Below, piece after piece: positions 5,247 through 25,558 of a stretch of 64,000 bases of DNA. This DNA is from Glycomyces sp. L485 (GTDB lineage: Bacteria > Actinomycetota > Actinomycetes > Mycobacteriales > Micromonosporaceae). Location: positions 186,264-250,263 of the forward strand of contig NZ_JAKZEW010000001.1 in assembly GCF_022548875.1 (NCBI RefSeq), read 5' to 3'. Position numbers and translations under genes: made by a program. How positions within the stretch are numbered: position 1 is the first letter of the stretch; each line of letters begins with the position of its first letter. Below the pieces are notes generated by a model. It was not told the DNA's origin, ran no database searches, and saw only the letters and a list, made by a program, of their open reading frames with translations.

Positions 5247-5583
5247 CTTCGCGGCCGAGGCGGCTAGCGACGCCTCTGGGGGTGAAGAGGTCCCCATAGC
5301 GGTCGGCGCTCATTCGCTCAGGAGCTTCCCCGTCGACCGCAGCGATCGTTGAGTCCGATCAGGACCACGTCCTCTCGTTCGGCCAGTGCATGGATTCGGT
5401 GAACCCGGTTCCGCCGCACAGCGCCTATTTCGCCTGCCCGGTGTCGAAGCGGCTCGACAGGAGACCGCGGACGCGTTCGAGCCGTTCGAGGTGTGCCTTG
5501 CCCATTGCCTCGTTCAATCTCGCCTAGCCGATGGACGGCGAGCTGTGCGTCGTCGAGAAAATGCGAATCGATCTACGGGCCTC
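5247..5583. other. Gene-free stretch upstream of the first carbohydrate locus
   Basis: No supported gene. Apart from a weak 6-bp hairpin at 5257-5276 I see nothing specific until the regulated promoter that begins at 5584. Confidence 0.5.
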
Positions 5584-5632
5584 TTGCTTACGCTGCTCAA
5601 GGTCGGTACGGTATGCAGCGAACCGGTTCGCT
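5584..5632 (+). promoter_or_regulatory. Promoter with LacI operator (AGCGAACCGGTTCGCT)
   Basis: TTGCTT (5584-5589) and TACGGT (5607-5612) are separated by 17 bp. The perfect 16-bp palindrome AGCGAACCGGTTCGCT (5617-5632) starts 5 nt after the -10 element and so covers the expected transcription start. The central CG and the symmetry are typical of LacI-family operators. The same site recurs at 8895, 9990 and 10040 around the LacI gene and the ABC importer. Confidence 0.85.
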
Positions 5633-5694
5633 CTGATGCACTGTCCCGGAGTGCGGGCGAGGGGCGGACCTCTCAATGATGAGAGTGAGGCGAA

Positions 5695-8600
5695 ATGAAC
5701 GTACGAACAAGGCGGGCCGCGCGAATATGCAGCGCGGTCGCAGCCTTCGCGATCATCCCCTTGGCAGCGGTGCCCGCCGCCGGCCAGGAAGCGGATGTCA
5801 TCAGGGTCGACCTCGGCCAGACCACCGGAGATTTCCTCGGAGGAGCCTCGGGCACGCTGTACGGCCTCTATGACGAGGGGCTGCCGTCCGAGAACTTGGT
5901 GGACGGCATCGATCTCACCTCGGTGTCCACCAAGGCCCAGGACGGGCCCCAGCACCCCGGAGCCGACGGGCTCGAAGTCCTCGGCCCGCTGGTGGAGGCC
6001 TCCAACGGCGACGTCTACATCTACATGACCGACATCCACCGCGGGTTCCCCTACCAGTGGCCCGGCGACACCCCCGAAGAGAAGCTCGACACCTACCTGG
6101 ACAAGATCCGCGTCCAGGCCGAGCAGGTCGCCACATTGCCCGCGGAACAGCAGGACAACATAGTCTTCATGCCGTACAACGAGCCCGAAGGGAACATGTT
6201 CGGCACCGGGACGTGGAGCTACAACGGCATCAGCTGGCTGGACGACCCCCAGTACTTCTTCGACGCCTGGGACCGGGCACACGGGACCATCCGCTCGGTA
6301 CTGCCCGACGCGCGCATCGGCGGCCCGAACACCACCGTGCTCTACAACCAGGTCTACGGCTTCATGGAGCACGCCATCGCAGCCGGGACGGTACCGGACA
6401 CGATGGCGTGGCACGAGCTGTCGAACCCGGCCCAGATCCGCACCAATGTCAACAAGTACCGCGGTTGGGAGGCGGAGTTCTTCGCCGGCACGGCATATGA
6501 GGGCACCGAGCTGCCGATCAACATCACCGAATACGCCTACCGCTACCACACCTCGGTGCCCGGCCAGATGATCCAGTGGGTCTCCGCGCTCGAAGATTCC
6601 AAAGTATACGGCGACATCGCCTATTGGAACATCGACGGCAACCTGTCCGACTCGGCCGTGCAGGCCAACCGGGCCAACGGCCAGTGGTGGCTGCTGCACG
6701 CCTACAGCCAGATGAGCGGCGGCCAGACCGTCGAGGTCACGCCGCCTCGGCCCGGCGTCAGCTACACCCTCCAGGGCGTCGCGACCATCGACACCGGCAA
6801 GCGGCAGGCCCGCGCTCTGATCGGCGGCGCGAGCGGGGCGAACACGCTCGCGTTCGACAACGTCCCGTCCGACGTATTCGGCCAGAACGTGCACGCGGTC
6901 GTGCGCGAGATCGGCTGGAGCGGCCAGATCGGCGACTCGGGCCAACCGGACACGGTGGCCGAGCTCGACGTGGCCGTCTCAGGCGGCACCGCCGAACTCG
7001 CCTTCGGCTCCGGCGGACTGCCGGAACTCGACGCGGAGTCCGCCTACGAGGTCATCGTGACCCCGAGCGTCTCCCCCGGAGAGACCGCCGTGCCGCAGTC
7101 GTCGTGGGAGGCGACATACGAGGCCGAGGACGCCACCTGGATCGGCGATGGCCTGCACCGCAACGGCCCCGAGGGCTCCCCGTCGAGCGTGTCCAAGTTC
7201 TACACCTCCGGCGGCTACAACGTCGGCGGTATGCGCACCGGCTCGGATAACGCGATCGAGTTCAACGTCAGCGTTCCCGAGGACGGCGTCTACGACCTGA
7301 GTGTCTTCGCCAGTTCCCTCAACACCGACGCCGAAGTGCAGGACCAGGGCCCGACGAACATGTTCCTGCGGGTCGACGGCGACGCCGCCACCGAGCAGGA
7401 GCTCTTCTTGACCCTGGGTTACAGGTGGGTGGTGTGGGACCACACCGACACGACCGTGGAACTCACCGCCGGGGACCACGTCATCACCCTGGCCACCCGC
7501 AGTCTCGACGGAACCGGCGCCATCACCGGCGACGTCATCCTCGACAAGATCGACCTGTCGCTGCCCCACCCCGACTACGGCGACGACGTGTACGAGGCCG
7601 AATTCGCCGAGTTCAGCGGCGGTGCGGAGCCCACTTACCCGACCGGACACAACGGTTCGGGCCCGGGCGCGGCCGCCGTGCCGGCCGGCGGCGAGGCGAC
7701 CTTCTGGGTCTACTCCCCGGACGACGCACCCGCCCGCCTCGACGTCGCCTCGCTCGGCGACCGGAAGGTGGAGCTCGAAGTCAACGGCGAGACCGTGACG
7801 ACCGGGCACGGCGGCATCGTCGACGCCTTCCTGCTCGGCGGGATCAACCAGGTCACCGTGAAGGGCGCCCAGGGGCTCGAGGTGGACCGTCTCGCCGTCA
7901 CGCCCTCCGTCGGAGCCGACGCCTCCGCCCTCTACGAGGCGGAGGACGGCGTCGTCGCCGGAACCGCCGAGGTCACGAACCTGTCCCTCGCCTCCGGCGG
8001 GGCCGCGGTGACGGGCATCGGCGGCGATCCCGGCAACGGCAACACCCTGACCTTCGACGGCGTCGAGGTTCCCGAAGCCGGCCGCTACGCGCTGACCTTC
8101 CGGTACTCCAACGAAGAGCAGTCGCCCGCCACGCACTACAACCCCGACCCGGTGGCGCGGTACGCGCTCGTGTCGGTCAACGGCGCCGACCCGGTCCGCG
8201 CGATCTTCCCGCACTCGTTCCACGAGAACAACTTCTGGGAGCTGACCGTGCCGGTCGACCTCCAGGCGGGGGCGAACTCGATCGTCGTGCGCGGTGAGGA
8301 GAAACCGCAGTTCGACGGCACGACCTACGCCTCGGACACCTGGCCCGACGTACTGCTGCGCTCGCGCTTCGCGCCCAACCTCGACCGGATCGCGGTCACC
8401 CCGCTGTTCGCCGACGTCGACTGGCGCGAACTGCGATCGCATAACTATCCGGACCGGCTGGTGCGGCACACGGACTCCAACGTCCGCCTGGAGGCGAACC
8501 CCAGCCCGGCGGAGGACGCGCGGTTCCGGATGGTGCCGGGCCTGGCCGACGGCTCGACCGGGTACGTGTCGTTCGAATCGGTGAACAACCCGGGCCAGTA

Positions 8601-8832
8601 CCTGCGGCACTCGTTCTTCGAGCTCGTGCTGGCGCCCGACGACGGAACGGCGCTGTTCGACGAGGACGCGACGTTCCGGATGGTCGAGGGTCTGGCCGAT
8701 GAGTGGTGTACGTCGTACCAGTCGTACAACTTCCCTGACCAGCACGTCCGGCACTCGGGCTTCGAGCTGCAGCTCGATCCGATAGAAGACGAGACCGGCC
8801 GCGCCGACTCCACCTTCTGCGTCAGCGTCTGA
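5695..8832 (+). CDS. Secreted clan GH-A (GH39-like) glycosidase with CBMs and AbfB domain
   Basis: 1045 residues. A signal peptide (about 1-31) is followed by a TIM-barrel glycosidase (about 35-340). The likely acid/base Glu is in YNEPEGN and the nucleophile Glu in NITEYAY, the clan GH-A arrangement. A beta-sandwich (about 340-465) follows, then CBM6/35-like carbohydrate-binding domains whose starts are marked by YEAED or YEAEF. The C-terminus (about 908-1045) is an AbfB/CBM42 arabinose-binding trefoil with repeated LRSHNYPDRLVRH-like segments. Family knowledge suggests a beta-xylosidase or arabinofuranosidase acting on arabinoxylan-like polymers; the exact GH family is uncertain. ATG 5695 has only weak upstream pairing (GAGTGAGG). 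Its promoter carries the LacI-1 operator, and a strong hairpin follows the stop. Confidence 0.75.
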   Translation: MNVRTRRAARICSAVAAFAIIPLAAVPAAGQEADVIRVDLGQTTGDFLGGASGTLYGLYDEGLPSENLVDGIDLTSVSTKAQDGPQHPGADGLEVLGPLVEASNGDVYIYMTDIHRGFPYQWPGDTPEEKLDTYLDKIRVQAEQVATLPAEQQDNIVFMPYNEPEGNMFGTGTWSYNGISWLDDPQYFFDAWDRAHGTIRSVLPDARIGGPNTTVLYNQVYGFMEHAIAAGTVPDTMAWHELSNPAQIRTNVNKYRGWEAEFFAGTAYEGTELPINITEYAYRYHTSVPGQMIQWVSALEDSKVYGDIAYWNIDGNLSDSAVQANRANGQWWLLHAYSQMSGGQTVEVTPPRPGVSYTLQGVATIDTGKRQARALIGGASGANTLAFDNVPSDVFGQNVHAVVREIGWSGQIGDSGQPDTVAELDVAVSGGTAELAFGSGGLPELDAESAYEVIVTPSVSPGETAVPQSSWEATYEAEDATWIGDGLHRNGPEGSPSSVSKFYTSGGYNVGGMRTGSDNAIEFNVSVPEDGVYDLSVFASSLNTDAEVQDQGPTNMFLRVDGDAATEQELFLTLGYRWVVWDHTDTTVELTAGDHVITLATRSLDGTGAITGDVILDKIDLSLPHPDYGDDVYEAEFAEFSGGAEPTYPTGHNGSGPGAAAVPAGGEATFWVYSPDDAPARLDVASLGDRKVELEVNGETVTTGHGGIVDAFLLGGINQVTVKGAQGLEVDRLAVTPSVGADASALYEAEDGVVAGTAEVTNLSLASGGAAVTGIGGDPGNGNTLTFDGVEVPEAGRYALTFRYSNEEQSPATHYNPDPVARYALVSVNGADPVRAIFPHSFHENNFWELTVPVDLQAGANSIVVRGEEKPQFDGTTYASDTWPDVLLRSRFAPNLDRIAVTPLFADVDWRELRSHNYPDRLVRHTDSNVRLEANPSPAEDARFRMVPGLADGSTGYVSFESVNNPGQYLRHSFFELVLAPDDGTALFDEDATFRMVEGLADEWCTSYQSYNFPDQHVRHSGFELQLDPIEDETGRADSTFCVSV

Positions 8833-8843
8833 TCAACAGTCCG

Positions 8844-8872
8844 GGCGGCCGCCGGCCCAGCCGGCGGCCGCC
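8844..8872 (+). terminator. Strong hairpin terminator
   Basis: GGCGGCCGCCGGC (8844-8856) pairs perfectly over 13 bp with 8860-8872, with loop CCA. There is no T run, as is common in actinobacteria. It ends the glycosidase transcript 11 nt after the stop. Confidence 0.75.
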
Positions 8873-8894
8873 TCTCGGGCGAGGTCCGCTGTAG

Positions 8895-8910
8895 AGCGAA
8901 CCGGTACACT
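8895..8910 (+). promoter_or_regulatory. Imperfect LacI-1 operator before its own gene
   Basis: AGCGAACCGGTACACT matches the 16-bp palindrome at 14 positions. It lies 35 nt before the GTG of the LacI gene, consistent with weaker autoregulation. Confidence 0.65.
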
Positions 8911-8944
8911 CGATCATGTCCGAGCGAGGAGTGGAAGGAACAAC

Positions 8945-9952
8945 GTGGCAACGATCGGCGATGTAGCACGTGAAGCCGGGGTGTCGCGCAGTACCGTCTC
9001 CTCGGTCCTCACCGGCCGCAAATACGTCAGCCCCCAGACCCGGGCGAAGGTCGACGCCGCGGTCGCCAAGCTCCACTTCTCGGTCAACGCCGGAGCGAGG
9101 GCGCTGGCGACCTCTCGGACGATGACGTTCGGCGTCGTCGTCCGCTTCCACGAGGCCGAGTTCAGCCCGGCGCTCGCGGCGTACCTCATCGCGCTGTCCG
9201 ACGCGGCGCGCGAGCAGGGCTACTCGGTCGTGCTGCTGACCGAGCCCGACGGCACGGAGGCGGTGCGGCGGGCGATCTCCGGCCGCCAGGTCGACGGGTT
9301 CATCCTGCTCAACGTGGTCGACGACGACCCGCGGCTGGAGCCGATCAGCCAGGCCCGCTACCCCGCGGTCCTCATCGGGATGCCGCAGGACGCACGCGGC
9401 GTCGACGCGGTCGACCTCGACTTCGCCGCGGCGGCCGCGATGCTGGTCGACCACATCGCCGACGCCGGGCACCGCGAGGCGATGTTCGTCCGATGGCCCG
9501 AGGAGCTGTACTCCTCGGGCAGCACCTACGCGACCCGGTTCGACCGCTCGGCGCGAGAGAGGGCCGAGCGGCGCGACCTGCGACTCGTTCCGGTCTCCGT
9601 CCCGGTGGGACCCGAGCAGGTGCGCACGACCCTGCGCGCCGCGCTGGAGAACCCCGAGAACCCGCACGCGCTGCTCATCCACAACGACGCCGCCGTGGCG
9701 ATGCTCCCGTTCGTGCTCGGCGATCTCGGGCTCGAAGTGCCCGCCGACCGCAGCGTCGTCTCGCTGCACGCGGCAGAGCTCGCGCGACTCTACGTCTTGT
9801 CGTTCACGTCGGTCGAGTCCGAGCCGGTCGCCGTCGCCCAGGCCGCGGTCGAGATGCTCGGGAAGCGGATCGCTTCGCCCGACAGTCCCGTGCACAAGCG
9901 CCTCATCATGCCGCACCTGGAGCCCAGAGCGAGCGTCGAAACTGTCGCATAG
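8945..9952 (+). CDS. LacI-family transcriptional regulator (LacI-1)
   Basis: 335 residues from a GTG behind GGAAGGAA. The N-terminal HTH is classical (ATIGDVAREAGVSRSTVSSV, residues 2-21), followed by a hinge helix with ALATSRTMTFGVVV. A periplasmic-binding-protein-like sugar domain (about 60-330) would bind the inducing oligosaccharide. The gene sits between the secreted glycosidase and the ABC importer. Both have copies of the palindrome AGCGAACCGGTTCGCT at their promoters, and a 14/16 copy precedes this gene. I infer that it represses the whole 5.6-15.2 kb locus, itself included, and is released by a transported sugar. Confidence 0.9.
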   Translation: MATIGDVAREAGVSRSTVSSVLTGRKYVSPQTRAKVDAAVAKLHFSVNAGARALATSRTMTFGVVVRFHEAEFSPALAAYLIALSDAAREQGYSVVLLTEPDGTEAVRRAISGRQVDGFILLNVVDDDPRLEPISQARYPAVLIGMPQDARGVDAVDLDFAAAAAMLVDHIADAGHREAMFVRWPEELYSSGSTYATRFDRSARERAERRDLRLVPVSVPVGPEQVRTTLRAALENPENPHALLIHNDAAVAMLPFVLGDLGLEVPADRSVVSLHAAELARLYVLSFTSVESEPVAVAQAAVEMLGKRIASPDSPVHKRLIMPHLEPRASVETVA

Positions 9953-9989
9953 GCCCGTGACGAGGGTGTATCAGGGCAGCTCAAGAATC

Positions 9990-10055
9990 AGCGAACCGGT
10001 TCGCCTTGACGAATGCGGATCCGTGCTGGCATGATCGGCAGCGAACCGGTTCGCT
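9990..10055 (+). promoter_or_regulatory. Importer promoter flanked by two LacI-1 operators
   Basis: TTGACG (10006-10011) and CATGAT (10030-10035) are 18 bp apart. One operator copy ends right against the -35 (9990-10005, 15 of 16 matches). A perfect copy (10040-10055) lies just after the -10. The centres are 50 bp apart, close to five helical turns, so one repressor tetramer or two dimers could occupy both sides of the promoter. Confidence 0.85.
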
Positions 10056-10120
10056 GACTATTGGAATCCCTCGAGTCAGCGAGGCACCGGTGATCCCAAC
10101 TCGACGAAGAGGCCGATGAA

Positions 10121-11377
10121 ATGACGAACAAGACGATGCGCCGGTGCCTCGCCGCCGGCGCCGCGGTCACGATGGGCGCCCTGGCCGCCTGCTCCGGCGG
10201 CACGCCCGAACCGGGAGAGAGCGGCAACGCGAGCGAAGGCTCGACGACCGCCGAGATCGCCTTCTGGGACCCCTACCCCCAGCACACCGAAGGTTCCGCC
10301 TGGGACGAGCACGTCAAGTCCTGCGCCCCGGACGGATCGACGATCGTGCGGACCAGCGCGCCCCAGACCGACCTGTTCAACCAGCTCACCACCGCAGTGA
10401 AGGAGGGCGGCGCCCCCGACGTCGTCCTGCTCGACAACCCGATGATGCCCGAAGCCGTCGGCGCCGAAATGCTGGCGACCGCCGAGCAGGCGGGCATCGA
10501 CACCACCGGCGTCGACGAGAACCTCATCGGACCCGGCGTCGTCGACGGCACCGCCTACGGCGTGCCGTTCGGCTCAAACGCGCTCGGCCTGTACTACAAC
10601 GTCGACCTGCTGGCAGAAGCCGGCGTCGACCCGGCCTCGATCACCGACTGGGACTCCCTGACCGCAGCGATGGAGCAGGTCGCCGCAGACGGCGGCAAGG
10701 GCATCACCTTCTCCGGCGTCACCGGCGAAGAGGGCGTCTTCCAGTTCCTCCCCTGGTTCTGGGGCGCCGGAGCCGACCTGTCCGACATCACCTCGGACGA
10801 GGCCGTCGCGGCCGGGCAGCTCCTCTCGGACTGGATCGGTGAGGGCCTGGCCCCCCGTTCGGCGGCCACCGACAACCAGTCGGCGGCCTGGGACCTGTTC
10901 CTCACCGGCGAGTACGCCTTCGCTGAGAACGGCTCGTGGTTCGCCTCGGCCGCGGCCGAAGCGGACTTCGAGGTCGGCGTCATCCCGATCCCGGCCAAGG
11001 ACGGCGGCGTCGCCCCGGTGCCGACCGGCGGCGAGTTCGCCGTGGCCCCGATCCAGACCGAGGACGCCTCCGACCACTACGCGAACGCGTCGGCCGTGAT
11101 CGCCTGCCTGACCGAAGGCGAGGCCGCGTTCCAGACCAACGAGACGCTCGGCTACCTCTCCGCCAAGCCCGAGGTCCGCGCCGACCAGGCGGACCAGTCG
11201 CCCCTGTGGGAGCCGTGGGTGTCCGCAGTCGAGGGCGCCCAGGGCCGCACCACCGAACTCGGCAGCGAGTACGTCGACGTGTCCGCCTCGCTCTCCGGGG
11301 CGATCCAGGCCGCGATCAACGCCGAGGGCGACCAGGCAGCCGTCGAGGCCGCGTTCCAGGACGCCGGCGGATTCTGA
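10121..11377 (+). CDS. ABC importer sugar-binding lipoprotein
   Basis: 418 residues. A lipoprotein signal with lipobox LAAC (residues 21-24) would anchor it outside the membrane. The rest is a family-1 solute-binding protein (MalE-like): N-terminal AEIAFWDPYPQHT and the central KGITFSG...FLPWFWGAGA segment are typical. It captures an oligosaccharide and hands it to the two permeases downstream. No ATPase gene is in the locus, so a shared MsiK-type ATPase elsewhere is likely, as in other actinobacteria. The promoter carries two LacI-1 operators. A 14-bp hairpin follows directly, which usually keeps binding-protein mRNA in excess over permease mRNA. Confidence 0.9.
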   Translation: MTNKTMRRCLAAGAAVTMGALAACSGGTPEPGESGNASEGSTTAEIAFWDPYPQHTEGSAWDEHVKSCAPDGSTIVRTSAPQTDLFNQLTTAVKEGGAPDVVLLDNPMMPEAVGAEMLATAEQAGIDTTGVDENLIGPGVVDGTAYGVPFGSNALGLYYNVDLLAEAGVDPASITDWDSLTAAMEQVAADGGKGITFSGVTGEEGVFQFLPWFWGAGADLSDITSDEAVAAGQLLSDWIGEGLAPRSAATDNQSAAWDLFLTGEYAFAENGSWFASAAAEADFEVGVIPIPAKDGGVAPVPTGGEFAVAPIQTEDASDHYANASAVIACLTEGEAAFQTNETLGYLSAKPEVRADQADQSPLWEPWVSAVEGAQGRTTELGSEYVDVSASLSGAIQAAINAEGDQAAVEAAFQDAGGF

Positions 11378-11380
11378 CGG

Positions 11381-11412
11381 TCGGTCGGCCCGCCCTCGGG
11401 CGGGCCGACCGA
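11381..11412 (+). terminator. Intra-operon hairpin (attenuator-like)
   Basis: TCGGTCGGCCCGCC (11381-11394) pairs perfectly over 14 bp with 11399-11412, with loop CTCG and no T run. It sits between the binding-protein and first permease genes, where partial termination or 3'-end protection would set the expression ratio. Confidence 0.7.
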
Positions 11413-11442
11413 TCCGGCAACCCGGATCGGAGCAGTACCCGA

Positions 11443-12390
11443 ATGACCACTCTGACCACGAGAACGGCAGCGCCGACCACTCAGGAACGGGCGACCTCGA
11501 AGCCGAGACGGCACGGCGCTCGCTGGGCGGCCGTCGCGTTCGTCGCCCCGCTGGTGATCTACCTCCTCCTCTTCTACGCCTACCCGCTCGCCCAGAACCT
11601 GTCGATGAGCCTGCACCGCTTCGACCGCGGGACCTTCATCAACGGCGGCGCCCCGTTCGTCGGCACCGAGATCTACCAGGACGTGGTCGAACACCCGCGG
11701 TTCTGGACCATCGTGCGGCAGACGACGGTGTTCACCGCCGCCTCGCTCGTGTTCCAGTACCTGATCGGACTGGCGCTGGCGGTCTTCTTCCACCGCGGCG
11801 GGTTCCGGCTGGCGGCGCCGCTTCGCGCCATGTTCCTCGTCCCGTGGCTCCTGCCCATCATCGTCTCGGGCACCACCTGGCAGTGGATGATGAACCCGGA
11901 CGACGGCATCCTCAACTCGTTCATCGGCCTGTTCGGCGCCGATCCGGTGTGGTGGCTCAGCGCCGACAACGCCCTGATGTCGGTGGCGATCGCGAACATC
12001 TGGCTCGGCATACCGTTCAACCTGGTGATTCTCTATTCAGGACTCCAAGGCATCCCGAAGGAGCTCTACGAGGCCGCGTCGATGGACGGCGCCACTCCCT
12101 GGCAGCAGTTCTGGCGCATCACCCTCCCGATGCTGCGTCCGGTCTCCCTCATCACCCTGCTCCTCGGCCTGGTGTACACGCTCAAGGTCGTCGACATCAT
12201 CTGGATCATGACGCTCGGAACCGGGACGTCCCAGACGCTCGCGACGTGGGCTTACGGCATGTCCGTCGGCAAGGGCGCCTCGGCGATCATCCGCTACTCC
12301 GAAGCCTCGGCCGTGGGGACGATACTGCTGCTGGCCGCACTCGCATTCGGCCTGATCTACATCGCGGCCCAACGGAAGCAGGAGGACTGA
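11443..12390 (+). CDS. ABC sugar importer permease 1 (MalF-like)
   Basis: 315 residues with six predicted membrane helices starting near residue 30 (AAVAFVAPLVIYLLLFY). The EAA loop that contacts the ATPase reads YEAASMDGATPWQQFWRITL (about 207-226), the usual form for carbohydrate type-I importers. ATG 11443 is the first start after the intergenic hairpin and has little Shine-Dalgarno pairing. The stop is 1 nt before permease 2, so the two are coupled. Confidence 0.9.
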   Translation: MTTLTTRTAAPTTQERATSKPRRHGARWAAVAFVAPLVIYLLLFYAYPLAQNLSMSLHRFDRGTFINGGAPFVGTEIYQDVVEHPRFWTIVRQTTVFTAASLVFQYLIGLALAVFFHRGGFRLAAPLRAMFLVPWLLPIIVSGTTWQWMMNPDDGILNSFIGLFGADPVWWLSADNALMSVAIANIWLGIPFNLVILYSGLQGIPKELYEAASMDGATPWQQFWRITLPMLRPVSLITLLLGLVYTLKVVDIIWIMTLGTGTSQTLATWAYGMSVGKGASAIIRYSEASAVGTILLLAALAFGLIYIAAQRKQED

Positions 12391-12391
12391 C

Positions 12392-13201
12392 ATGGCCCGC
12401 ACCTGGTGGAAGAACCCCGTCGCGGTCGTCGTGACCGCGCTCATGCTGTTCCCTCTCTACTGGATGCTCAACGTCTCGTTCACCAGGCGCGAGAGCATCC
12501 GAGGCGGCGACCTCCTGCCCGTCGACTTCACCTTGGACCACTACGCGGTCGTCCTCCGCGATCAGCTCCCGTACCTCGGCACGAGCCTCGTGATCGGCGC
12601 CGGGACGGTGGTGCTCACGCTCGCTATCGCGGCGCCGGCCTCGTTCGCGCTCGCCAGAATGGCCGTGCCGGGACGCCGCGTCCTCGGTTTCGCGCTGATC
12701 GTGGCGCAGATGGTCCCGGCCGTGGTCATGTCGCTCGGCCTGTACTCGATCTACAACACCGTGGGGCTGCTCGACACGCTTCCGGGCCTGATCCTTGCGG
12801 ACTCCACGATCGCGGTCCCGTTCGCCGTCCTGCTCCTCACCGCGTTCATGTCCGGCATTCCCCGTGAACTGCTGCAAGCGGCCCAGATCGACGGCGCCTC
12901 GCACTGGCGGACGTTCCGGTCGATCGTGCTGCCGGTCTCGCGGAACGCGATCATCACTTCGGCGCTGTTCGCGTTCCTGTGGGCGTGGTCGGACTTCATC
13001 TTCGCTTCCACCCTCAATCGCGAGGGCGGCTTGCTCCGGCCGATCACGATGGGCATATACAACTACATCGGAGCCCAGAACCAGGAGTGGGGCCCGATGA
13101 TGGCGACCGCGGTGGTCGCCTCGATCCCGGCGGCGGTGCTGCTGGTCGTGGCACAGAAATACGTGGCCGCCGGCGTGACCGCCGGCGCGGTCAAGAACTA
13201 G
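12392..13201 (+). CDS. ABC sugar importer permease 2 (MalG-like)
   Basis: 269 residues, six helices. The EAA motif appears as LLQAAQIDGASHWRTFRSIV (about 158-177) and the family signature SDFIFASTLNREGGLLRP near the end of the conserved core. GCAGGAGGA provides the ribosome site within the end of permease 1. Together with the lipoprotein and permease 1 it forms a complete transmembrane importer lacking only the ATPase. Confidence 0.9.
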   Translation: MARTWWKNPVAVVVTALMLFPLYWMLNVSFTRRESIRGGDLLPVDFTLDHYAVVLRDQLPYLGTSLVIGAGTVVLTLAIAAPASFALARMAVPGRRVLGFALIVAQMVPAVVMSLGLYSIYNTVGLLDTLPGLILADSTIAVPFAVLLLTAFMSGIPRELLQAAQIDGASHWRTFRSIVLPVSRNAIITSALFAFLWAWSDFIFASTLNREGGLLRPITMGIYNYIGAQNQEWGPMMATAVVASIPAAVLLVVAQKYVAAGVTAGAVKN

Positions 13202-13221: not shown

Positions 13222-15243
13222 ATGAACACGTTCGAGACGACCGAGGACTCCATCACCTGGCGCGGCGACGGTGAGACGCTGGTGGTCCAGGCGTGGGGCC
13301 GCGATTCGCTGCGGGTGCGCAGTTCGCCGTCGGGCGACGTGCGCGACACGGATTTCGCGCTGCTGGAGCCCGAGCCGGTTCAGGTCGCCATCGAGGTGGA
13401 CGGCGAGACCGCGACGCTCACGAACGGCGCCATCACAGCCGTGCTCAGGGCCTGGGGCGGCTTCGACTATCAGACCGGCTATGACGTCTTCAAGTGCTCG
13501 CTGGAGTTCCGTGACGCGGACGGGCGAACCGTGCTCAAGGAACTCGGCGGTGGAGGCGCTCTCAAGCTCGCCGCGCGCGAGTTCCGGCCGCAGGCCGGTG
13601 GAGCGCACCGCCTGCGAGCCGCGTTCGAGCCGGTCGCGGGGGAGAAGCTCTACGGGATGGGGCAGTACCAGCAGGAGATCCTCGACGTCAAGGGATCCAC
13701 GTTCGAACTGGCGCACCGCAACTCCCAGGCCAGCGTCCCCTTCGTCGTCTCCAGCGCAGGTTACGGGTTCCTGTGGCACAACCCGGCCATCGGGGCGGCC
13801 ACGTTCGCGGCGAACCGCACCGAGTGGGTCGCCGAAGCCACCGAACAGCTCGACTACTGGATCACGGTCGGTACGACGCCCGCGAAGATCAGCGGCGCGT
13901 ACGCCGATGCGACAGGGCACGCCCCGATGATGCCCGAGTACGGGCTCGGGTACTGGCAGTGCAAGCTGCGGTACTGGAACCAGGAGCAGCTGCTCGAGGT
14001 GGCGCGCGAGCACAGGCGGCGTGGGTTGCCGCTCGACGTCATCGTCGCGGACTTCTTCCACTGGCCCAAGATGGGCGACTTCCGCTTCGAGGAGGAGTTC
14101 TGGCCCGACCCGGCCGCGATGGTCGCCGAGCTCAAGGAGATGGGCGTGGAGCTGATGGTCTCCGTCTGGCCCCAGGTCTCGCTCGAGTCGGAGAACTTCG
14201 CGAGGCTCAAGAAGGAGAACCTGCTGGTCCGCACGGAAAGGGGCCTGGACGTCCAGATGGGCTTCCAAGGTCCGAGCATGTTCCTCGACGCCACGAACCC
14301 CCGCGCTCGCTCCGAGGTCTGGGACATCGTCAGGCGCAACTACCACGACCTCGGCATCAAGGTCTTCTGGCTCGACGAGGCCGAACCCGAGTACGGCGTC
14401 TACGACTTCGACAACTACCGCTATCACGCGGGTCCGAACGTCGAGGTCGGCAACGTGTACCCCCAGGCGTTCTCGCGGATGTTCTACGAAGGACAGCGCG
14501 AGGCCGGTCAGGACGAGGTGGTGAACCTGGTGCGCTGCGCCTGGGCCGGCAGCCAGCGCTACGGGGCGCTCGTGTGGTCCGGGGACATCCACTCGAGCTG
14601 GGAGGACTTCCGAAAGCAGATCACCGCGGGCATCCACATGGGCGTCGCGGGCATCCCGTGGTTCACCACCGACATCGGCGGCTTCGGCGGCGGGAACATC
14701 CACGACCCCGGTTTCCGCGACCTGCTCGTCAGGTGGTTCCAGTTCGGGGCGTTCTGCCCGGTCATGCGCATGCACGGTGACAGGCAGCCGAGCGAGGAGG
14801 TCCGGGCTGCGGACGGCTCGGCCCGCAACCCCACCGGCGCGCCCAACGAGCTGTGGAGTTTCGGTGAGGAGGTCTACGAGATCCTCGCTCGCTACGTCCA
14901 CTTCCGGGAGGCGATGCGGCCGTATACCCGCCGCCTGATGGAAGACGCCCACACCGACGGCCAGCCGGTCATGCGCGGCATGTTCCACGAGTTCCCTGCC
15001 GACGAAGTCTGCTGGGACCTGGCCGACCAGTACATGTACGGCCCTGACCTGCTGGTCGCTCCTGTGGTCGAGCCGCGCGTGACCAGCCGCCGCGTCTATC
15101 TGCCCGCAGGCGCGCAGTGGACCGACCTGCGCACCGGGACGGGGCACGAAGGCGGCCAGTGGCTCACCGTCGACGCCCCGCTCGACCGCATCCCGGTCTT
15201 CACTCGGAACGGCGCACTGCCCGAACTCGTCGGCGCGATCTAG
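13222..15243 (+). CDS. GH31 glycosidase, probable alpha-xylosidase
   Basis: 673 residues, no signal peptide, so probably cytoplasmic and acting on imported oligosaccharides. The N-terminal beta-sandwich ends near MMPEYGLGYWQCKLRYWNQE, the usual entry to the GH31 barrel. The nucleophile is D385 in FWLDEAEPE and the acid/base D455 in WSGDIHSSW. The xLDEAEPEYG form resembles alpha-xylosidases active on xyloglucan-type fragments more than maltases. ATG 13222 starts 20 nt after the permease stop in the same operon. Role inferred: removing alpha-xylosyl or similar side chains from sugars delivered by the importer. A long hairpin follows. Confidence 0.85.
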   Translation: MNTFETTEDSITWRGDGETLVVQAWGRDSLRVRSSPSGDVRDTDFALLEPEPVQVAIEVDGETATLTNGAITAVLRAWGGFDYQTGYDVFKCSLEFRDADGRTVLKELGGGGALKLAAREFRPQAGGAHRLRAAFEPVAGEKLYGMGQYQQEILDVKGSTFELAHRNSQASVPFVVSSAGYGFLWHNPAIGAATFAANRTEWVAEATEQLDYWITVGTTPAKISGAYADATGHAPMMPEYGLGYWQCKLRYWNQEQLLEVAREHRRRGLPLDVIVADFFHWPKMGDFRFEEEFWPDPAAMVAELKEMGVELMVSVWPQVSLESENFARLKKENLLVRTERGLDVQMGFQGPSMFLDATNPRARSEVWDIVRRNYHDLGIKVFWLDEAEPEYGVYDFDNYRYHAGPNVEVGNVYPQAFSRMFYEGQREAGQDEVVNLVRCAWAGSQRYGALVWSGDIHSSWEDFRKQITAGIHMGVAGIPWFTTDIGGFGGGNIHDPGFRDLLVRWFQFGAFCPVMRMHGDRQPSEEVRAADGSARNPTGAPNELWSFGEEVYEILARYVHFREAMRPYTRRLMEDAHTDGQPVMRGMFHEFPADEVCWDLADQYMYGPDLLVAPVVEPRVTSRRVYLPAGAQWTDLRTGTGHEGGQWLTVDAPLDRIPVFTRNGALPELVGAI

Positions 15244-15408: not shown

Positions 15409-16812
15409 CTAGATCGGGGCGATGCCTTCGAGGGTCGGGACGACCGGTCGGATGGAGCCGTCCGGCTCGAAGTACAGGCGGTCGATCATGGTCTCGCGGT
15501 GGGTGCCGTCGCCGTCGGGTATGGCGAAGCGGTGGTAGGCGATGTACCAGTCGTCGGTGCCGGGGACCTGGACGACCGAGTGGTGGCCGGTGCCCTTGAT
15601 GCCTTGGCTCAGGTCCTTTTGGAGGATCACTCCGACTCGATCGCTCCACGGGCCGGTCGGCGAGGAACCGGTGGCGTAGGCGACGCGGTAGTCCTCGCTT
15701 CGGGTGTCGTTCTCCGACCACATGAAGTAGTAGGTGCCGTCGCGTTCGACGACGAAGGCGCCCTCGTTGTAACCGGGCGGGTCGTAGATGGCGACCTGGT
15801 CGGGGTCGAACGAGATCATGTCCTCGTTCAGCGGCACCTGCTGCGCCTGGCCGTTTCCCCAGTACAGGTAGGACTGGCCGTCGTCATCGGTGTAGACGGC
15901 CGGGTCGATCGCCTGGCCCGAGTAGGTGCCCGCCGGGACCAGCGGTTCACCGAGGGCGTCGGTGAACGGGCCGGTCGGTGAGTCCGAGACGGCCACGCCG
16001 AGGTGCTTGGCCGTGTTGCCGCTGGCCAGACCGCCGGAGAAGTAGAAGTAGTACTTCCCGTTCTTCTCGGCGATGCCGGGCGCCCAGGCCGAGTTGTCGG
16101 CCCAGGAGACGTCGGTCGCGAGGTCGAGGATCACGCCGTGGTCGGTCCAGTTGACCAGGTCGGTGGAGGAGAAGGCCCGGTACTGGGTGCCCGACCAGCC
16201 GGCGAAGCCGTCGGTGGTCGGGTAGAGGTAGTAGGTGTCGTCGAAGACGACGATGTTCGGGTCGGCGAACAGGCCGGGCAGAGCCGGATTCGAGACCAGG
16301 TTCAGCTCCCATTTCTGATTGTCGCCGGTGTGGCAGTCCCACTGCTGGAGTCGTGCGCCGTTGTCGGTCGAGGAGCTGGGCACGTCGAGGCACTTGTCGG
16401 AATGGCGGGCGATGAGTTGCACCTGGCCGTTCCCGGCGTCTTGGATCTGCCATTGCTGGTTGGCTCCGCCGTTGCAGGTCCACTGGATGACCTTGGCGCC
16501 GTTGGAGTCCGAGGCAGAGGTGACGTCGAGGCACTTGTCGGAGTGGCGAGCGGTGAGCTCGACGTAGCCGTCGCCCAGGTCGTTCATGCGCCACAGCTGG
16601 TTCAGGCCGTCGTTGCAGTCGTATTGCGCGATCTCTGCGCCGTCGGCGGTGGATGCGCTGATCACGTCGGCGCATTTGTCCGAGTGGAAGGCGATCAGGT
16701 TGACCGACGTCCCGTCGGTCAGATGGTGATCGGCCGCGGCGGGGGAGGCTCCGCTCAACGCGATGGCCAGCGCCAACACGAGAGCGGAGCATATGGAGCG
16801 GATTCTGGGCAT
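15409..16812 (-). CDS. Secreted GH43-like glycosidase with N-terminal ricin-type lectin
   Basis: 467 residues. A signal peptide (about 1-27, ending SPAAA) is followed by a ricin-B/CBM13 trefoil (about 35-172) with three repeats carrying HSDKC and Q-x-W motifs (NQLW, NQQW, NQKW). A five-bladed GH43-type propeller follows (about 178-467). The catalytic triad is visible: Asp in FADPNIV (base), Asp in AIDPAVY (pKa tuner) and Glu in YNEGAFV (acid). Family members release arabinose, xylose or galactose units. The start is the ATG at 16812, preceded by AAGGAGATCACC. A 9/12 version of the second operator lies 51 nt upstream, and a frameshifted small gene precedes it on the same strand, so it may belong to the LacI-2 regulon. 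Confidence 0.85.
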   Translation of the reverse strand: MPRIRSICSALVLALAIALSGASPAAADHHLTDGTSVNLIAFHSDKCADVISASTADGAEIAQYDCNDGLNQLWRMNDLGDGYVELTARHSDKCLDVTSASDSNGAKVIQWTCNGGANQQWQIQDAGNGQVQLIARHSDKCLDVPSSSTDNGARLQQWDCHTGDNQKWELNLVSNPALPGLFADPNIVVFDDTYYLYPTTDGFAGWSGTQYRAFSSTDLVNWTDHGVILDLATDVSWADNSAWAPGIAEKNGKYYFYFSGGLASGNTAKHLGVAVSDSPTGPFTDALGEPLVPAGTYSGQAIDPAVYTDDDGQSYLYWGNGQAQQVPLNEDMISFDPDQVAIYDPPGYNEGAFVVERDGTYYFMWSENDTRSEDYRVAYATGSSPTGPWSDRVGVILQKDLSQGIKGTGHHSVVQVPGTDDWYIAYHRFAIPDGDGTHRETMIDRLYFEPDGSIRPVVPTLEGIAPI

Positions 16813-16862
16813 GGTGATCTCCTTGGTTCGGGGCGCCAGGCTCGAACGGGCGCGGACCGAGT

Positions 16863-16874
16863 GGTACCGATAAC
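16863..16874 (-). promoter_or_regulatory. Weak LacI-2-type operator upstream of the GH43 gene
   Basis: Read on the minus strand, GTTATCGGTACC matches the GATATCGTTATC operator at 9 of 12 positions including the central TCG. It lies 51 nt before the GH43 start codon. The match is marginal on its own and is supported mainly by location. Confidence 0.35.
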
Positions 16875-16906
16875 ATGGGCTGATCCAGTGTGGGAACGAC
16901 CGAGGA

Positions 16907-17249
16907 TCAATGGTCCGAGGCTAACGACAACCCATAGAGAAAGTCAAGAGCCTCGATGCCGGACGACGACTCGGCTCGACTGCCGAGGTCGGTCACGGCC
17001 GGGGCGACGCGGGTGCGTACCACCGTGCATCTGTCCTCTTCGTATAGACCGACCAGCTGGTGCCCCAAGCGGTGCAGGCCGATCGAGCGCCATGGTCCGG
17101 CGTTCGGACCGAACCAGCCGATCCGGTCGTTGCCGGTCGGGGCCCACCACAGGTCCAGGCGGGTCCCTCGATCGTGAGTCCCCCGGTGAGAGCAGGCGGC
17201 CGAAGCCGTCGAACTCGGCCGCGAATCGGCATGAGCAGCCCGGGCTCAT
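16907..17249 (-). pseudogene. Small unknown gene broken by a 1-nt insertion
   Basis: A strong ribosome site (GGAGGGAGGC) precedes an ATG at 17249, opening the frame MSPGCSCRFAAEFDGFGRLL. After about 23 codons the coding character moves to the +1 frame, continuing THDRGTRLDLWWAPTGNDRI and ending GLSLASDH at the TGA at 16907-16909. Removing one G from the run of five (17180-17184 on the plus strand as C) rejoins both parts into a protein of about 113 residues. I do not recognise the family; Trp- and Gly-rich segments suggest a beta-rich fold. An 11/12 operator lies 73 nt upstream of the start, which places it in the LacI-2 regulon. Real mutation and sequencing error are both possible. Confidence 0.6.
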
Positions 17250-17321
17250 GCCTCCCTCCGAAGTGTTGCGGGGTCGATCGCGGTGTGGCTGAGGGGCGGG
17301 GAGGTGCTCGGGCGGACACGG

Positions 17322-17333
17322 GATAACGATTTC
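17322..17333 (-). promoter_or_regulatory. LacI-2-type operator before the frameshifted gene
   Basis: GATAACGATTTC matches GATAACGATATC at 11 of 12 positions. It is 73 nt upstream of the minus-strand start at 17249 and about 175 nt before the plus-strand operator at 17508, so it probably serves the minus-strand gene. Confidence 0.55.
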
Positions 17334-17467
17334 TGTCCTAAGGGGTCGAACCGGAATGTCGAGGCCGATCTTCTGGGCTTAGGGCAAGCTCGCCGACGGT
17401 GCCGGCCCGGCTTTTCGGCCTTGGGGTGGTGGGTGTTCCACTTGAACCGCAGGTTGCGATCAGAGTA

Positions 17468-17519
17468 TTGACATACATAGATGTTGTGAGTACTGTTGAA
17501 ATTGAGGGATAACGATATC
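17468..17519 (+). promoter_or_regulatory. Promoter with LacI-2-type operator
   Basis: TTGACA (17468-17473) and TACTGT (17491-17496) are separated by an ideal 17 bp. The near-palindrome GATAACGATATC (17508-17519) begins 11 nt after the -10 element, at about +5, where a bound repressor would block transcription. The AT-rich region stands out from its surroundings. Confidence 0.8.
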
Positions 17520-17573
17520 TCAAGGTGATGGTTGCGTTCCCGCATCGCACACCGCATGGAGCAAAGGAGCACC

Positions 17574-19277
17574 ATGTCAGAACGACATGACACAGAACGA
17601 CCGCGCACGCCGTCGAAGCGCGCGAGCGTCGGACGGCGGCGCCTCTTCCAAGGGGCGATCGGCGCGGCGGGCCTGGCGGTGGCCGGCGCCGGCTCCGTCG
17701 GCATCGCCGGTGCCCAAGGCCAGCCGGCCGGAGTGCTCCAGAATTCCCACCCCGGGATGCTCCATACCGAGGCGGACCTCGACCGCATGGCCGAAAAGGT
17801 CGACGCGGGCGCCGAGCCGTGGACCTCCGGTTGGGACAAGCTGGTCGCCAACGGCCGCTCGCACAGTACCTGGGAGCCCCGCCCGGTGGAAGTGGTCGTA
17901 CGCGGTGGCGGCCAGGAGGAGAACTACGCGCAGCTCTACCTCGACATCGCTGCGGCTTACCAGAACGCGCTGCGATGGAAGATCTCCGGGGACACCGCCC
18001 ACGGCGATGCCGCGCGAGACATCTGCAACGCGTGGTCGCAGACGCTGAGGTCCATTGACCCCACCCACTCCGATTCCCGTCTAGCCTCAGGCATCTACGG
18101 CTACCAGTTCGCAAACGTCGGCGAGCTCATCCGCGACTACGACGGCTTCGACCTGGCTCGGTTCCAGGACATGATGCACAACGTCTTCTACCCGCTGAAC
18201 AGCGACTTCCTGGCCAGGCACAACGACACCTGCGACAGCCACTACTGGGCCAACTGGGACCTGTGCAACATGGCCTCGATCATCGCAATCGGAATCCTGC
18301 GCGACGACCAGGCCCAGTTCGACGAGGCGGTGGACTATTTCCACAACGGTGAGGGCAACGGCTCGATCGAGAACGCGATCCCGTTCGTCTACGACGACGG
18401 CCTCGCTCAGTGGCAGGAGTCCGGCCGCGACCAGGCGCACTCGATCATGGGCATCGGCCTGATGGCCGCGTTCATGGAGATGGCCTGGAATCAGGGCCTC
18501 GACCTGTACTCGGCCAATGACAACGCCTTCGCCAAGGCCGCAGAGTACGTCGCCCGCTACAACCTCGGCTACAACGACGTTCCGTTCACCACCTACAGCT
18601 GGGGGTTCGGCCACAACTGCGACTACCGTGAGCACACCGCCATCTCTGAGGGCGGCCGCGGTGAGCAGCGCCCGGTGTGGGAGATGGTCTACAACCACTA
18701 CAGCGTGCGGCGCGGGCTCAAGATGCCGAACGTCGCTCGGATGGCCGCCTCCCTGCGACCCGAAGGGGGCGGCGGGGACTACAACTCGAGCTCCGGCGGC
18801 TTCGACGCCCTCGGCTTCGGCACCCTCGCCAACACGCTGCCGACCCCGGCCGTCGTCTCAGGAGGGGTTTACACGCTCACCTGCGAGCGTTCGGGGAAGG
18901 TCTTGGACAACGCCGCCTCCTCCGAGAACGGCCAGCGGATGATCCAGTGGGGCGCGAACGGCGGTACCCAGCAGCGCTGGTACATCAACGACGTCGGCGG
19001 CGGCTACCATCGGCTGCTCTGCCAGCATTCGGGCAAGGCACTCGACAACGGCAACACCGCGACCGAAGGCGCTCGGGTCATCCAGTGGACCGACAACCGG
19101 GGCCCGCAGCAGCGCTGGCGCATCACCGACGTCGGCGGTGGAGCGGTCAAGCTCACCTGCGAACGCTCCGGCATGGTGCTCGACAACGGCAACGGCGAGG
19201 CGGACGGCGACGGCGTCATCCAGTGGAGCGACAACGGCGGACCGCAGCAGCGTTGGCACCTGCACCGCATCGCCTGA
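17574..19277 (+). CDS. Tat-exported alginate-lyase-family protein with ricin-type lectin
   Basis: 567 residues. I chose the ATG at 17574 because AAAGGAG lies 4 nt upstream. The Tat signal reads GRRRLFQGAIGAAGLAVAGAG (about 20-39). An (alpha/alpha)-barrel of the alginate-lyase superfamily follows (about 55-415), with the conserved HYWANWDLCNM and GRDQAHSIMGIGLM segments that hold likely active-site Asn, Arg and His. The C-terminus (about 430-567) is a ricin-B/CBM13 trefoil with three repeats of LDN...IQW and QQRW. The enzyme should cleave an acidic polysaccharide outside the cell; alginate itself is not certain. The promoter carries a LacI-2-type operator. Confidence 0.8.
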   Translation: MSERHDTERPRTPSKRASVGRRRLFQGAIGAAGLAVAGAGSVGIAGAQGQPAGVLQNSHPGMLHTEADLDRMAEKVDAGAEPWTSGWDKLVANGRSHSTWEPRPVEVVVRGGGQEENYAQLYLDIAAAYQNALRWKISGDTAHGDAARDICNAWSQTLRSIDPTHSDSRLASGIYGYQFANVGELIRDYDGFDLARFQDMMHNVFYPLNSDFLARHNDTCDSHYWANWDLCNMASIIAIGILRDDQAQFDEAVDYFHNGEGNGSIENAIPFVYDDGLAQWQESGRDQAHSIMGIGLMAAFMEMAWNQGLDLYSANDNAFAKAAEYVARYNLGYNDVPFTTYSWGFGHNCDYREHTAISEGGRGEQRPVWEMVYNHYSVRRGLKMPNVARMAASLRPEGGGGDYNSSSGGFDALGFGTLANTLPTPAVVSGGVYTLTCERSGKVLDNAASSENGQRMIQWGANGGTQQRWYINDVGGGYHRLLCQHSGKALDNGNTATEGARVIQWTDNRGPQQRWRITDVGGGAVKLTCERSGMVLDNGNGEADGDGVIQWSDNGGPQQRWHLHRIA

Positions 19278-24538: not shown

Positions 24539-25558
24539 ATGAGTTCCTCCAAGCCGTACCGCGCCCCCGTTCTCGCCGACGTCGCAAGGGCGGCAGGGGT
24601 CTCGGTGCCCACCGTCTCCCGCGTGCTGAACGGATCGAAGTACGTCGCACCCGAGCTGACCCAGCGGGTGCAGGCCGCGGTGAAGGAACTCGGTTACCGC
24701 CCCAACAGCGCCGCACGCTCGCTTCGGTCCAAGCAGCGCACCCTCGTCTCGATCCTCGCCGGGGCCACGTCGAACTACGGTCCGGCCCACACCCTTCAGG
24801 GCATCGAGACCGCGGCCCGGAACGCGGGGATGTCGGTCTCGATAACCGTGATGGAGTCGGACGACGACGAGTCCTTGGTGAGCGCGATCGACCTCGCGCT
24901 CTCCCAGCCCACGGCCGGCGCCATCGTCCTGGAGTTCGATCGCGCCGGCATAGGAGCGGCCCGTTCACTGCCCGAGGGCCTGCCGGTCGTCGTCGCCGGC
25001 GGCGGATCCGAGCGTGTGGACGGCATGGCGGCCGCCCTCCTCGACGAGCATGCCGCGGGCCGCCAGGCGACGGACTACCTGATCCGCCTGGGCCACGAGA
25101 CCGTCCACCACGTCGCCGGCCCGACGCAGGGGAAGTCCTCCGGCCGGACCGAGGGCTGGCGTGCCGCACTGCGGGACGCAGGTGCCGCCGTCCCCGAGGT
25201 CCTGCATGCGAACTGGGACGCCGTCTCGGGCTACCAGTGCGGTGAGAGGATCGCCGGGCGCGACGATGTCACGGCCGTCTTCTGCGGCAACGACGAGATC
25301 GCGCTCGGTGTCATGCGGGCGCTGACCGACCGCGGACTCGACGTCCCCGTCGATGTCTCGGTGGTCGGCTTCGACGACCAGCCTCTCGTCTCCCTCTGGC
25401 GTCCTTCGCTGACCACGATCGACCAGGATTTCGAGGACCTCGGTGCGCGGGCGTTCCACATGCTGTCCAGACTGCTCGACGGCGAGGTAGACCTCAAGGC
25501 GTCGGTGGTCGCACCCCAGCTGGTGGTGCGGGAGTCCACCGCGCCTCCTCGCCGCTGA
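24539..25558 (+). CDS. LacI-family transcriptional regulator (LacI-2)
   Basis: 339 residues. Start taken at ATG 24539, where homology begins; the upstream open frame overlaps the decayed binding-protein gene. The HTH reads LADVARAAGVSVPTVSRVLN (about 11-30), followed by the hinge with NSAARSLRSKQR and a sugar-binding domain (about 65-330, ending LVVREST). It lies at the end of the second carbohydrate locus. I infer that it recognises GATAWCGWTATC, present upstream of both lyases, the frameshifted gene and, weakly, the GH43 gene. No clear copy precedes this gene, so it may not autoregulate. Confidence 0.85.
   Translation: MSSSKPYRAPVLADVARAAGVSVPTVSRVLNGSKYVAPELTQRVQAAVKELGYRPNSAARSLRSKQRTLVSILAGATSNYGPAHTLQGIETAARNAGMSVSITVMESDDDESLVSAIDLALSQPTAGAIVLEFDRAGIGAARSLPEGLPVVVAGGGSERVDGMAAALLDEHAAGRQATDYLIRLGHETVHHVAGPTQGKSSGRTEGWRAALRDAGAAVPEVLHANWDAVSGYQCGERIAGRDDVTAVFCGNDEIALGVMRALTDRGLDVPVDVSVVGFDDQPLVSLWRPSLTTIDQDFEDLGARAFHMLSRLLDGEVDLKASVVAPQLVVRESTAPPRR

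Follow-up and report, generated by a model that had tools for sequence, protein, structure and literature searches.

A gene cluster with four copies of one palindrome

We analysed a sugar-use gene cluster and its putative LacI-type switch in a 64,000-nucleotide stretch of Glycomyces sp. L485 (contig NZ_JAKZEW010000001.1, positions 186,264 to 250,263 of the forward strand), called the window below and numbered from its first base. The cluster lies on the plus strand and comprises a gene for a secreted glycosidase resembling glycoside hydrolase family 39 (GH39), the gene for a LacI/GalR-family protein, here LacI-1, the genes of an ATP-binding cassette (ABC) importer and a GH31 gene (Table 1). 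Four copies of the palindrome AGCGAACCGGTTCGCT fall in the gaps ahead of three of these genes, encoding the GH39-like protein, LacI-1 and the solute-binding protein. With a probability of about 90%, we consider LacI-1 to be a local autoregulating repressor and AGCGAACCGGTTCGCT to be its operator. Sequence comparisons strongly support a regulon made up of the autoregulated lacI, the secreted GH39-like enzyme and the importer-GH31 operon. This regulon is larger than the one described in an earlier sequence-only reading of the same DNA, which contained neither the GH31 gene in the importer operon nor a paralogous repressor with a related operator.

LacI-1 has the LacI/GalR domains PF00356 (55.8 bits, cut-off 27) and PF13377 (Peripla_BP_3; 78.1 bits, cut-off 26.5). 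In the GH39-like protein, Pfam searches found AbfB at the C terminus and CBM_35, with CBM_6 below the cut-off, while Glyco_hydro_39 gave no match at an E value of 0.001. The N-terminal half matches the PDB entries 5u22 (N2152; E=5.7e-30, residues 39-455) and 8uwt, and we take N2152 to be the NF2152 structure. Glu163 and Glu279 stand at the expected catalytic positions and are conserved in relatives; homology to the NF2152 catalytic domain, together with these two glutamates, places the enzyme with the GAfase/AAfase/NF2152-like members of GH39. The importer genes (10121-13201) encode a solute-binding lipoprotein and two permeases, with no ATPase gene among them; family searches for permease A were run on 11551-12390. 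As the GH31 gene lies close behind permease B, it is counted in the importer operon. Its product has a GH31 TIM barrel (267.6 bits in Pfam) and aligns across residues 3-668 with MeXyl31, the nearest PDB match (E=6.9e-251), and is assigned to the GH31 alpha-xylosidases by its domains and its full-length similarity to this characterised enzyme.

The sequence-only reading had placed perfect copies of the 16-mer at 5617 and 10040, a 15/16 copy at 9990 and a 14/16 copy at 8895, all at the promoters of the glycosidase, importer and LacI genes. Our scan of the window, allowing up to three mismatches, returned exactly these four places (zero, zero, one and two mismatches, respectively). In 100 dinucleotide shuffles of the window, the mean was 0.65 matches at the same threshold and the largest count 3, and none reached four. 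Throughout the genome (4,416,376 bases, 151 contigs), sites with at most one mismatch exist only at 5617, 9990 and 10040; the expectation from base composition is 0.0015 exact 16-mers per genome and 0.08 with at most one mismatch. Places with two mismatches number five, 8895 among them, and those with three mismatches number 40. A global regulon in this genome was considered and rejected. Two of the four further two-mismatch places were checked, one lying on contig C23 between an SNF2-type gene and a laminin-G protein and the other on C151 within a methyltransferase open reading frame (ORF). The site occurs at three promoters and is a palindrome of even length (16 bp) centred on CG (...ACCGGT...), the form expected of LacI/GalR operators according to PMC4052901.

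The two importer sites flank a promoter, TTGACG-18-CATGAT, as had been proposed, and the distance between their centres is exactly 50.0 bp. This promoter is the only sigma-70-like site in 5500-10200 by the scan rule used (mean of 0.3 in shuffles).

Table 1. Predicted genes and control sites of the LacI-1 regulon (window positions)
Feature	Position	Strand	Remarks
Promoter-like TTGCTT (5584-5589) -17- TACGGT (5607-5612) of GH39-like gene	5584..5612	+	
Operator, exact 16-mer	5617..5632	.	4 bp past -10-like hexamer; spans expected transcription start of GH39-like gene
Secreted GH39-like glycosidase, 1045 aa	5695..8832	+	Signal peptide (read from sequence), TIM-barrel region, CBM35, AbfB (CBM42) domain
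Operator of lacI, 14/16	8895..8910	.	Right half holds TACACT (8905-8910), possible -10 hexamer
LacI-1, LacI/GalR-family repressor, 335 aa	8945..9952	+	Recognition helix VSRSTVSSVL
Degenerate operator-like stretch within lacI	9529..9544	.	4 mismatches
Operator O1 of importer-GH31 operon, 15/16	9990..10005	.	Abuts -35 hexamer
Promoter TTGACG (10006-10011) -18- CATGAT (10030-10035) of importer-GH31 operon	10006..10035	+	
Operator O2 of importer-GH31 operon, exact 16-mer	10040..10055	.	4 bp past -10 hexamer; 50.0 bp centre to centre from O1
ABC importer solute-binding lipoprotein, SBP_bac_8	10121..11377	+	Lipobox LAAC read from sequence
ABC importer permease A	11443..12390	+	Pfam family search
ABC importer permease B	12392..13201	+	Pfam family search
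GH31 enzyme, no evident signal peptide	13222..15243	+	Start codon 13222; close to alpha-xylosidase MeXyl31

Further along the window, 15409-19277 holds a GH43 gene with ricin-type lectin repeats (15409-16812, minus strand) and a gene for an alginate-lyase-like protein with lectin repeats (17532-19277). The window scan found no site with up to three mismatches upstream of either, and both were dropped as regulon members. A second LacI gene of the window (G000:C111:210835; helix-turn-helix (HTH) at 24572-24706, helix VSVPTVSRVL) has no operator copy near it.

Conservation across Glycomyces and other genera

The genus comparison covered 22 Glycomyces genomes, including that of strain L485 (G000), and their kinship makes them non-independent. 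Counting L485 itself, 11 of the 22 have an orthologue of LacI-1 (76-88% identity). Every one of these 11 also contains sites with at most one mismatch, against one of the 11 genomes that lack the orthologue (Fisher P 3.4e-5, a guide only, the species being related). Of the 31 such sites that the orthologue genomes hold, LacI-1 clusters account for 26; the other five are all in genome G021, two ahead of a detached GH39 gene and three elsewhere. HTH residues 12-22 of LacI-1 are identical in all 12 aligned Glycomyces proteins.

The operator also accompanies the predicted target genes. GH39 orthologues (at least 78% identity) have an upstream site with at most one mismatch at 11 of 11 loci. Among 12 GH31 orthologues (at least 80%), six have a site no more than about 270 bp upstream, three end an operator-bearing importer operon and one has a site at 500 bp; the first six include the detached GH31 gene on G006:C11, which has an operator with the same CCTTGACG...GGCATGATC promoter. 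Operator-bearing targets detached from lacI are, among the sequence comparisons made here, the strongest comparative evidence. Promicromonospora, Antribacter and two Propionibacteriaceae likewise have operators at the corresponding genes. In Promicromonospora and Myceligenerans, the protein encoded behind the operator is a different one; it has a ricin-type lectin domain and matches GH39 below the Pfam cut-off, so that a target of GH39 type may be an enduring feature. The pairing of the palindrome with the adjacent LacI protein, put forward in the sequence-only reading, thus gains support from genus-wide co-occurrence, from same-gene operators in other genera and from the detached GH39 and GH31 targets.

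The arrangement of promoter and operator is conserved within the genus. All 11 Glycomyces GH39 promoters consist of TTGCNN, a 17-base spacer (18 in locus L097), TAYGKT, exactly four bases and the operator, and all nine importer or GH31 promoters consist of TTGACG, a spacer of 17-18, a -10-like hexamer, four bases and the operator, with O1 abutting the -35 hexamer in six. The centres of the importer or GH31 operator pairs are 49-50 bp apart in Glycomyces; the range is 46-49 bp in Promicromonospora, Antribacter and the two Propionibacteriaceae. GH39 genes with a pair have spacings of 52 (L097) or 55 (L100, L101, L102 and L104). Other genera still show TTGAC and the pair of operators. The lacI-promoter sites share an identical T-to-A change at position 12 in all 11 cases found (seven Glycomyces, four from other genera), which yields TACACT or TACGCT, as if the lacI operator overlaps the -10 hexamer of lacI and is compromised in favour of the promoter.

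Operator-like sequences also occur inside genes. At the place of the degenerate stretch in the window lacI (Table 1), the lacI genes of G004, G006 and G014 contain an intact 14-mer core (L017, L018 and L019, at 1906, around codon 195), and the coding sequence of the detached GH39 gene of G021 (L104) contains two, at 10563 and 11513. These could be auxiliary operators resembling lac O2, or could have arisen by chance under coding constraint. We draw no conclusion on the copy within lacI because it has four mismatches in the window and the encoded motif A-T/N-R-F constrains the sequence.

A paralogous repressor and operator base pair 2/15

Among the 29 LacI HTH domains of the genome, Arg15-Ser16 is present only in LacI-1 and in a paralogue (G000:C15:42676-43668) that is 38% identical to it; the other 27 were set aside as candidate binders, leaving the paralogue alone as a rival. 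The paralogue locus (G000:C15:39517-45216, L111) has related importer genes and a divergent GH39-like gene with 27% identity by tblastn, no Pfam match and Arg at the -2-subsite position. The operator of the paralogue is TTCGAACCGGTTCGAA/C, and its divergent promoter region holds two T-type sites, TTCGAACCGGTTCGAA and TTCGAACCGGTTCGAC, 141 bp apart. The operators of the two proteins have a common 12-bp core, CGAACCGGTTCG, and differ in their outer base pairs, above all at 2/15 (G.C for LacI-1, T.A for the paralogue).

We compared this difference with the recognition helix in 51 LacI proteins, comprising relatives, LacI-1 and the paralogue, around which sites were gathered by the core CGAACCGGTTCG with at most one mismatch, the outer bases not being prescribed. 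Residue 20 is Ser in 16 of these proteins, Ala in two and Tyr in 33. Beside the Ser/Ala20 proteins, base 2 of the half-sites is G in 76 and T in none, and beside the Tyr20 proteins it is T in 114 and G in 32, counts that do not equal independent events. A tree of the effector domains requires two changes of residue 20, and one of them depends on the long branch L152. Proteins from Oerskovia and Cellulosimicrobium are close in the effector domain (56-57%) and have Tyr20 and CTCGAACCGGTTCGAC. The L152 protein is 36% identical in its effector domain and 80% identical in helix segment 20-29, with a Ser20 helix and an exact AGCGAACCGGTTCGCT before a GH31 gene, which may point to an independent second origin or to a swap of domains. 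Residues 23, 25 and 26 change along with residue 20, so these comparisons do not single out the causal residue.

A search of DNA alone in 394 genomes of the class, in which LacI HTH segments near sites were sought by a regular expression that can miss some, points the same way for Tyr20. TCGAACCGGTTCGA occurs at 37 places; of the 30 loci examined, 12 have a LacI HTH no further than about 1.5 kb away, with Tyr20 in 11 cases, one being the paralogue itself. GCGAACCGGTTCGC occurs at 75 places, and the 30 loci examined, none from the L485 genome, include one with a LacI HTH nearby (L265); this protein has Tyr20 and is an exception to the rule. The association of Tyr20 with T is thus supported by a search independent of the proteins. 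That a change in the Ser20 segment, together with the change of operator base, made the LacI-1 operator and kept the two Glycomyces GH39/importer regulons apart is a suggestion that we put slightly short of even odds. Such insulation may be one-sided, Ser/Ala20 proteins occurring only with G in the counts and Tyr20 proteins tolerating G.

In each of the 19 Streptosporangiaceae loci among L155-L180, lacI is preceded by an asymmetric site, GTTGAACCGGTTCGC(C/T), no more than 200 bp away and by a T-type site at a distance of about 30 bp. Many of these loci have a divergent GH39 gene.

Mechanism, substrate and alternative explanations

In the proposed mechanism, a LacI-1 dimer would bind each site. 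Without inducer, dimers would cover the transcription starts of the GH39-like gene and the importer operon (5617 and 10040), the -35 side of the importer promoter (9990) and the lacI -10 hexamer (8895), keeping RNA polymerase out; their release would come from an inducer formed from the imported sugar. LacI-1 ends at residue 335 and seems to lack a tetramerisation tail of the LacI type, for which reason a pair of dimers, one on either side of the promoter, would be a better fit than a looped tetramer.

Several observations weigh against this regulon. Two of the 12 GH31 orthologues (G009:C80 and G006:C2) lack any site with up to three mismatches over 1.5 kb of upstream sequence. Three of the nine Glycomyces importer or GH31 promoters (L098, L101 and L102) have a weak O1 or have lost it, and a lacI-promoter site with up to three mismatches was found at seven of 12 Glycomyces lacI-1 genes and at four of five outside the genus. 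The distance between promoter and operator is not always kept outside the genus: in Promicromonospora (L140) and Antribacter (L141), a single base separates CATGAT or CACTAT from the operator. G002 holds two one-mismatch sites, yet no LacI-1 orthologue was found there. The sequence-only reading had named many scattered copies as a sign that would count against it: the L485 genome has none at up to one mismatch, and one relative, G021, does have stray copies, several of them within unrelated genes. The 14-mer core also turns up elsewhere in the class, in 59 of 393 other genomes (72 copies, about 0.18 per genome), a background on account of which single sites without promoter context are not to be trusted, and 29 of the 30 core loci examined in the DNA search had no LacI HTH nearby, within the reach of the regular expression.

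One of the G021 copies, a one-mismatch site at G021:C127:71857 (L105, 5858), lies between a sugar permease gene and a gene for a XylR/AraC-type regulator, and would fit xylose use.

Could the four palindromes be chance or unrelated repeats? The sporadic 14-mer core in other actinomycetes speaks for such an origin, but the shuffles, none of which held four sites, the genus-wide co-occurrence and the shared promoter footprint make it barely credible. The position of O1 immediately upstream of the -35 hexamer raises another idea, that LacI-1 acts from O1 as an activator of the importer promoter, exclusively or in addition, and that O2 serves for repression. We regard this as very unlikely: a dimer at O1, abutting the -35 hexamer, would probably collide with the polymerase, L098, L101 and L102 keep O2 where O1 is weak or absent, and most LacI-family proteins repress. 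The paralogue on C15 is a somewhat more serious contender, as it could bind the sites in whole or in part, with the two regulons cross-wired. Its Arg15-Ser16 pair is that of LacI-1, its operator TTCGAACCGGTTCGAA contains the same 12-bp core, and Tyr20 proteins tolerate a G half-site, with G at base 2 in 32 of the 146 half-sites scored G or T and one Tyr20 LacI outside the group adjoining a GCGAACCGGTTCGC site. On the other side, the paralogue has a T-type site pair of its own, and the seven genomes that have a paralogue-type LacI (41-44% identity) and no LacI-1 (G002, G003, G005, G008, G012, G017 and G020) contain no exact 16-mer, with one-mismatch sites in G002 alone; we consider cross-binding improbable. 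Binding of the four sites by LacI-1 as a local repressor remains the reading that we favour.

The genes suggest a route for the sugar itself, in which the secreted GH39-like enzyme would act on plant polysaccharide to free an arabinose-ended disaccharide, to be taken up by the ABC importer and split inside the cell by the GH31 enzyme. As the partner enzyme is alpha-xylosidase-like, alpha-D-Xyl-(1->3)-L-Ara is the leading candidate for this product, a tentative proposal drawn from homology and with the odds somewhat against it. Bifidobacterium GH39 GAfase and AAfase free Gal-alpha-1,3-Ara or Arap-beta-1,3-Ara, respectively, beside importer genes and a GH36 enzyme, and an exchange at the -2-subsite residue converts GAfase to AAfase (PMC10688797). 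Corn bran xylan contains alpha-xylose, and a Bacteroides ovatus GH31 enzyme releases xylose from it (PMC4491172).

There is about an even chance that the sugar is another one, for example beta-L-Arap-(1->3)-L-Ara or xyloglucan-derived isoprimeverose, which would leave the operator assignment untouched. Tyr110 of the GH39-like enzyme stands at the -2-subsite position, which tells AAfase (Tyr) from GAfase (Asn) (PMC10688797); we located this counterpart from the 5u22 alignment, with the aromatic residues at +8 and +10 as further guides. GH31 alpha-xylosidases also act on xyloglucan oligosaccharides (PMC4491172). Against another sugar stand the closeness of the GH31 enzyme to MeXyl31 and its distance from the GH31 alpha-galactosidases 8j50-8j53 (best E value 7e-32). 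The AbfB domain on the GH39-like enzyme, whose ligand suggests arabinofuranosyl chains, argues in the same direction.

Relation to known systems

The closest known counterparts are the GAfase/AAfase clusters of Bifidobacterium longum and B. pseudocatenulatum, which likewise combine a disaccharide-releasing GH39 enzyme, a solute-binding protein, two permeases and a LacI-type regulator (PMC10688797). The operon partner there is GH36 and here is the alpha-xylosidase-like GH31 enzyme; the Glycomyces cluster would work like such a cluster, and without the GH36 partner we do not class it as one. For the Bifidobacterium clusters, the accessible part of PMC10688797 yielded no operator of the regulator; the operator is described here. 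MeXyl31 (PDB 5zn6/5zn7), which matches the window GH31 protein along almost the entire sequence, is of soil-metagenome origin (PMC7527525).

Local sugar regulons of the LacI family as described in PMC4052901 share with this one the even central-CG palindrome, the adjacent regulator gene, autoregulation and tandem sites upstream of operons; Actinobacteria are under-represented in that collection. Our literature searches found no paper on this operator, and the string GAACCGGTTC appeared in eight papers, unrelated by title, which does not prove absence of publication. The present assignment would offer a firm link of regulator, operator and genes for an actinobacterial sugar-use cluster of which these searches found no description, and it predicts the role of the GH39-like and GH31 enzymes and a route to their induction.

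The switch is an ordinary kind of gene control, and the near-identical site of its sister repressor is what makes it a good natural case for asking how such switches remain separate. The LacI recognition code of PMC2978694 treats HTH residues 15, 16 and 20, in the same numbering, as specificity positions, and is limited to TVSR (Arg20) proteins, in which residue 20 is linked to base NT-6. LacI-1 reads TVSS at residues 17-20 and so falls outside the TVSR subgroup of Camas et al.; in contrast to that code, NT-6 is C in both classes studied here, and it is NT-7, by our own count, that differs between Ser/Ala20 and Tyr20. The separation of repressors after duplication has been approached by simulation on lac mutation data (PMC1464816). 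Paired paralogues whose operators have a shared 12-bp core and unlike flanks provide a ready natural test of such separation; if the proposed role of the Ser20 segment is true, they would be a natural counterpart to the simulated divergence of duplicated repressor-operator pairs and would extend the recognition code beyond Arg20.

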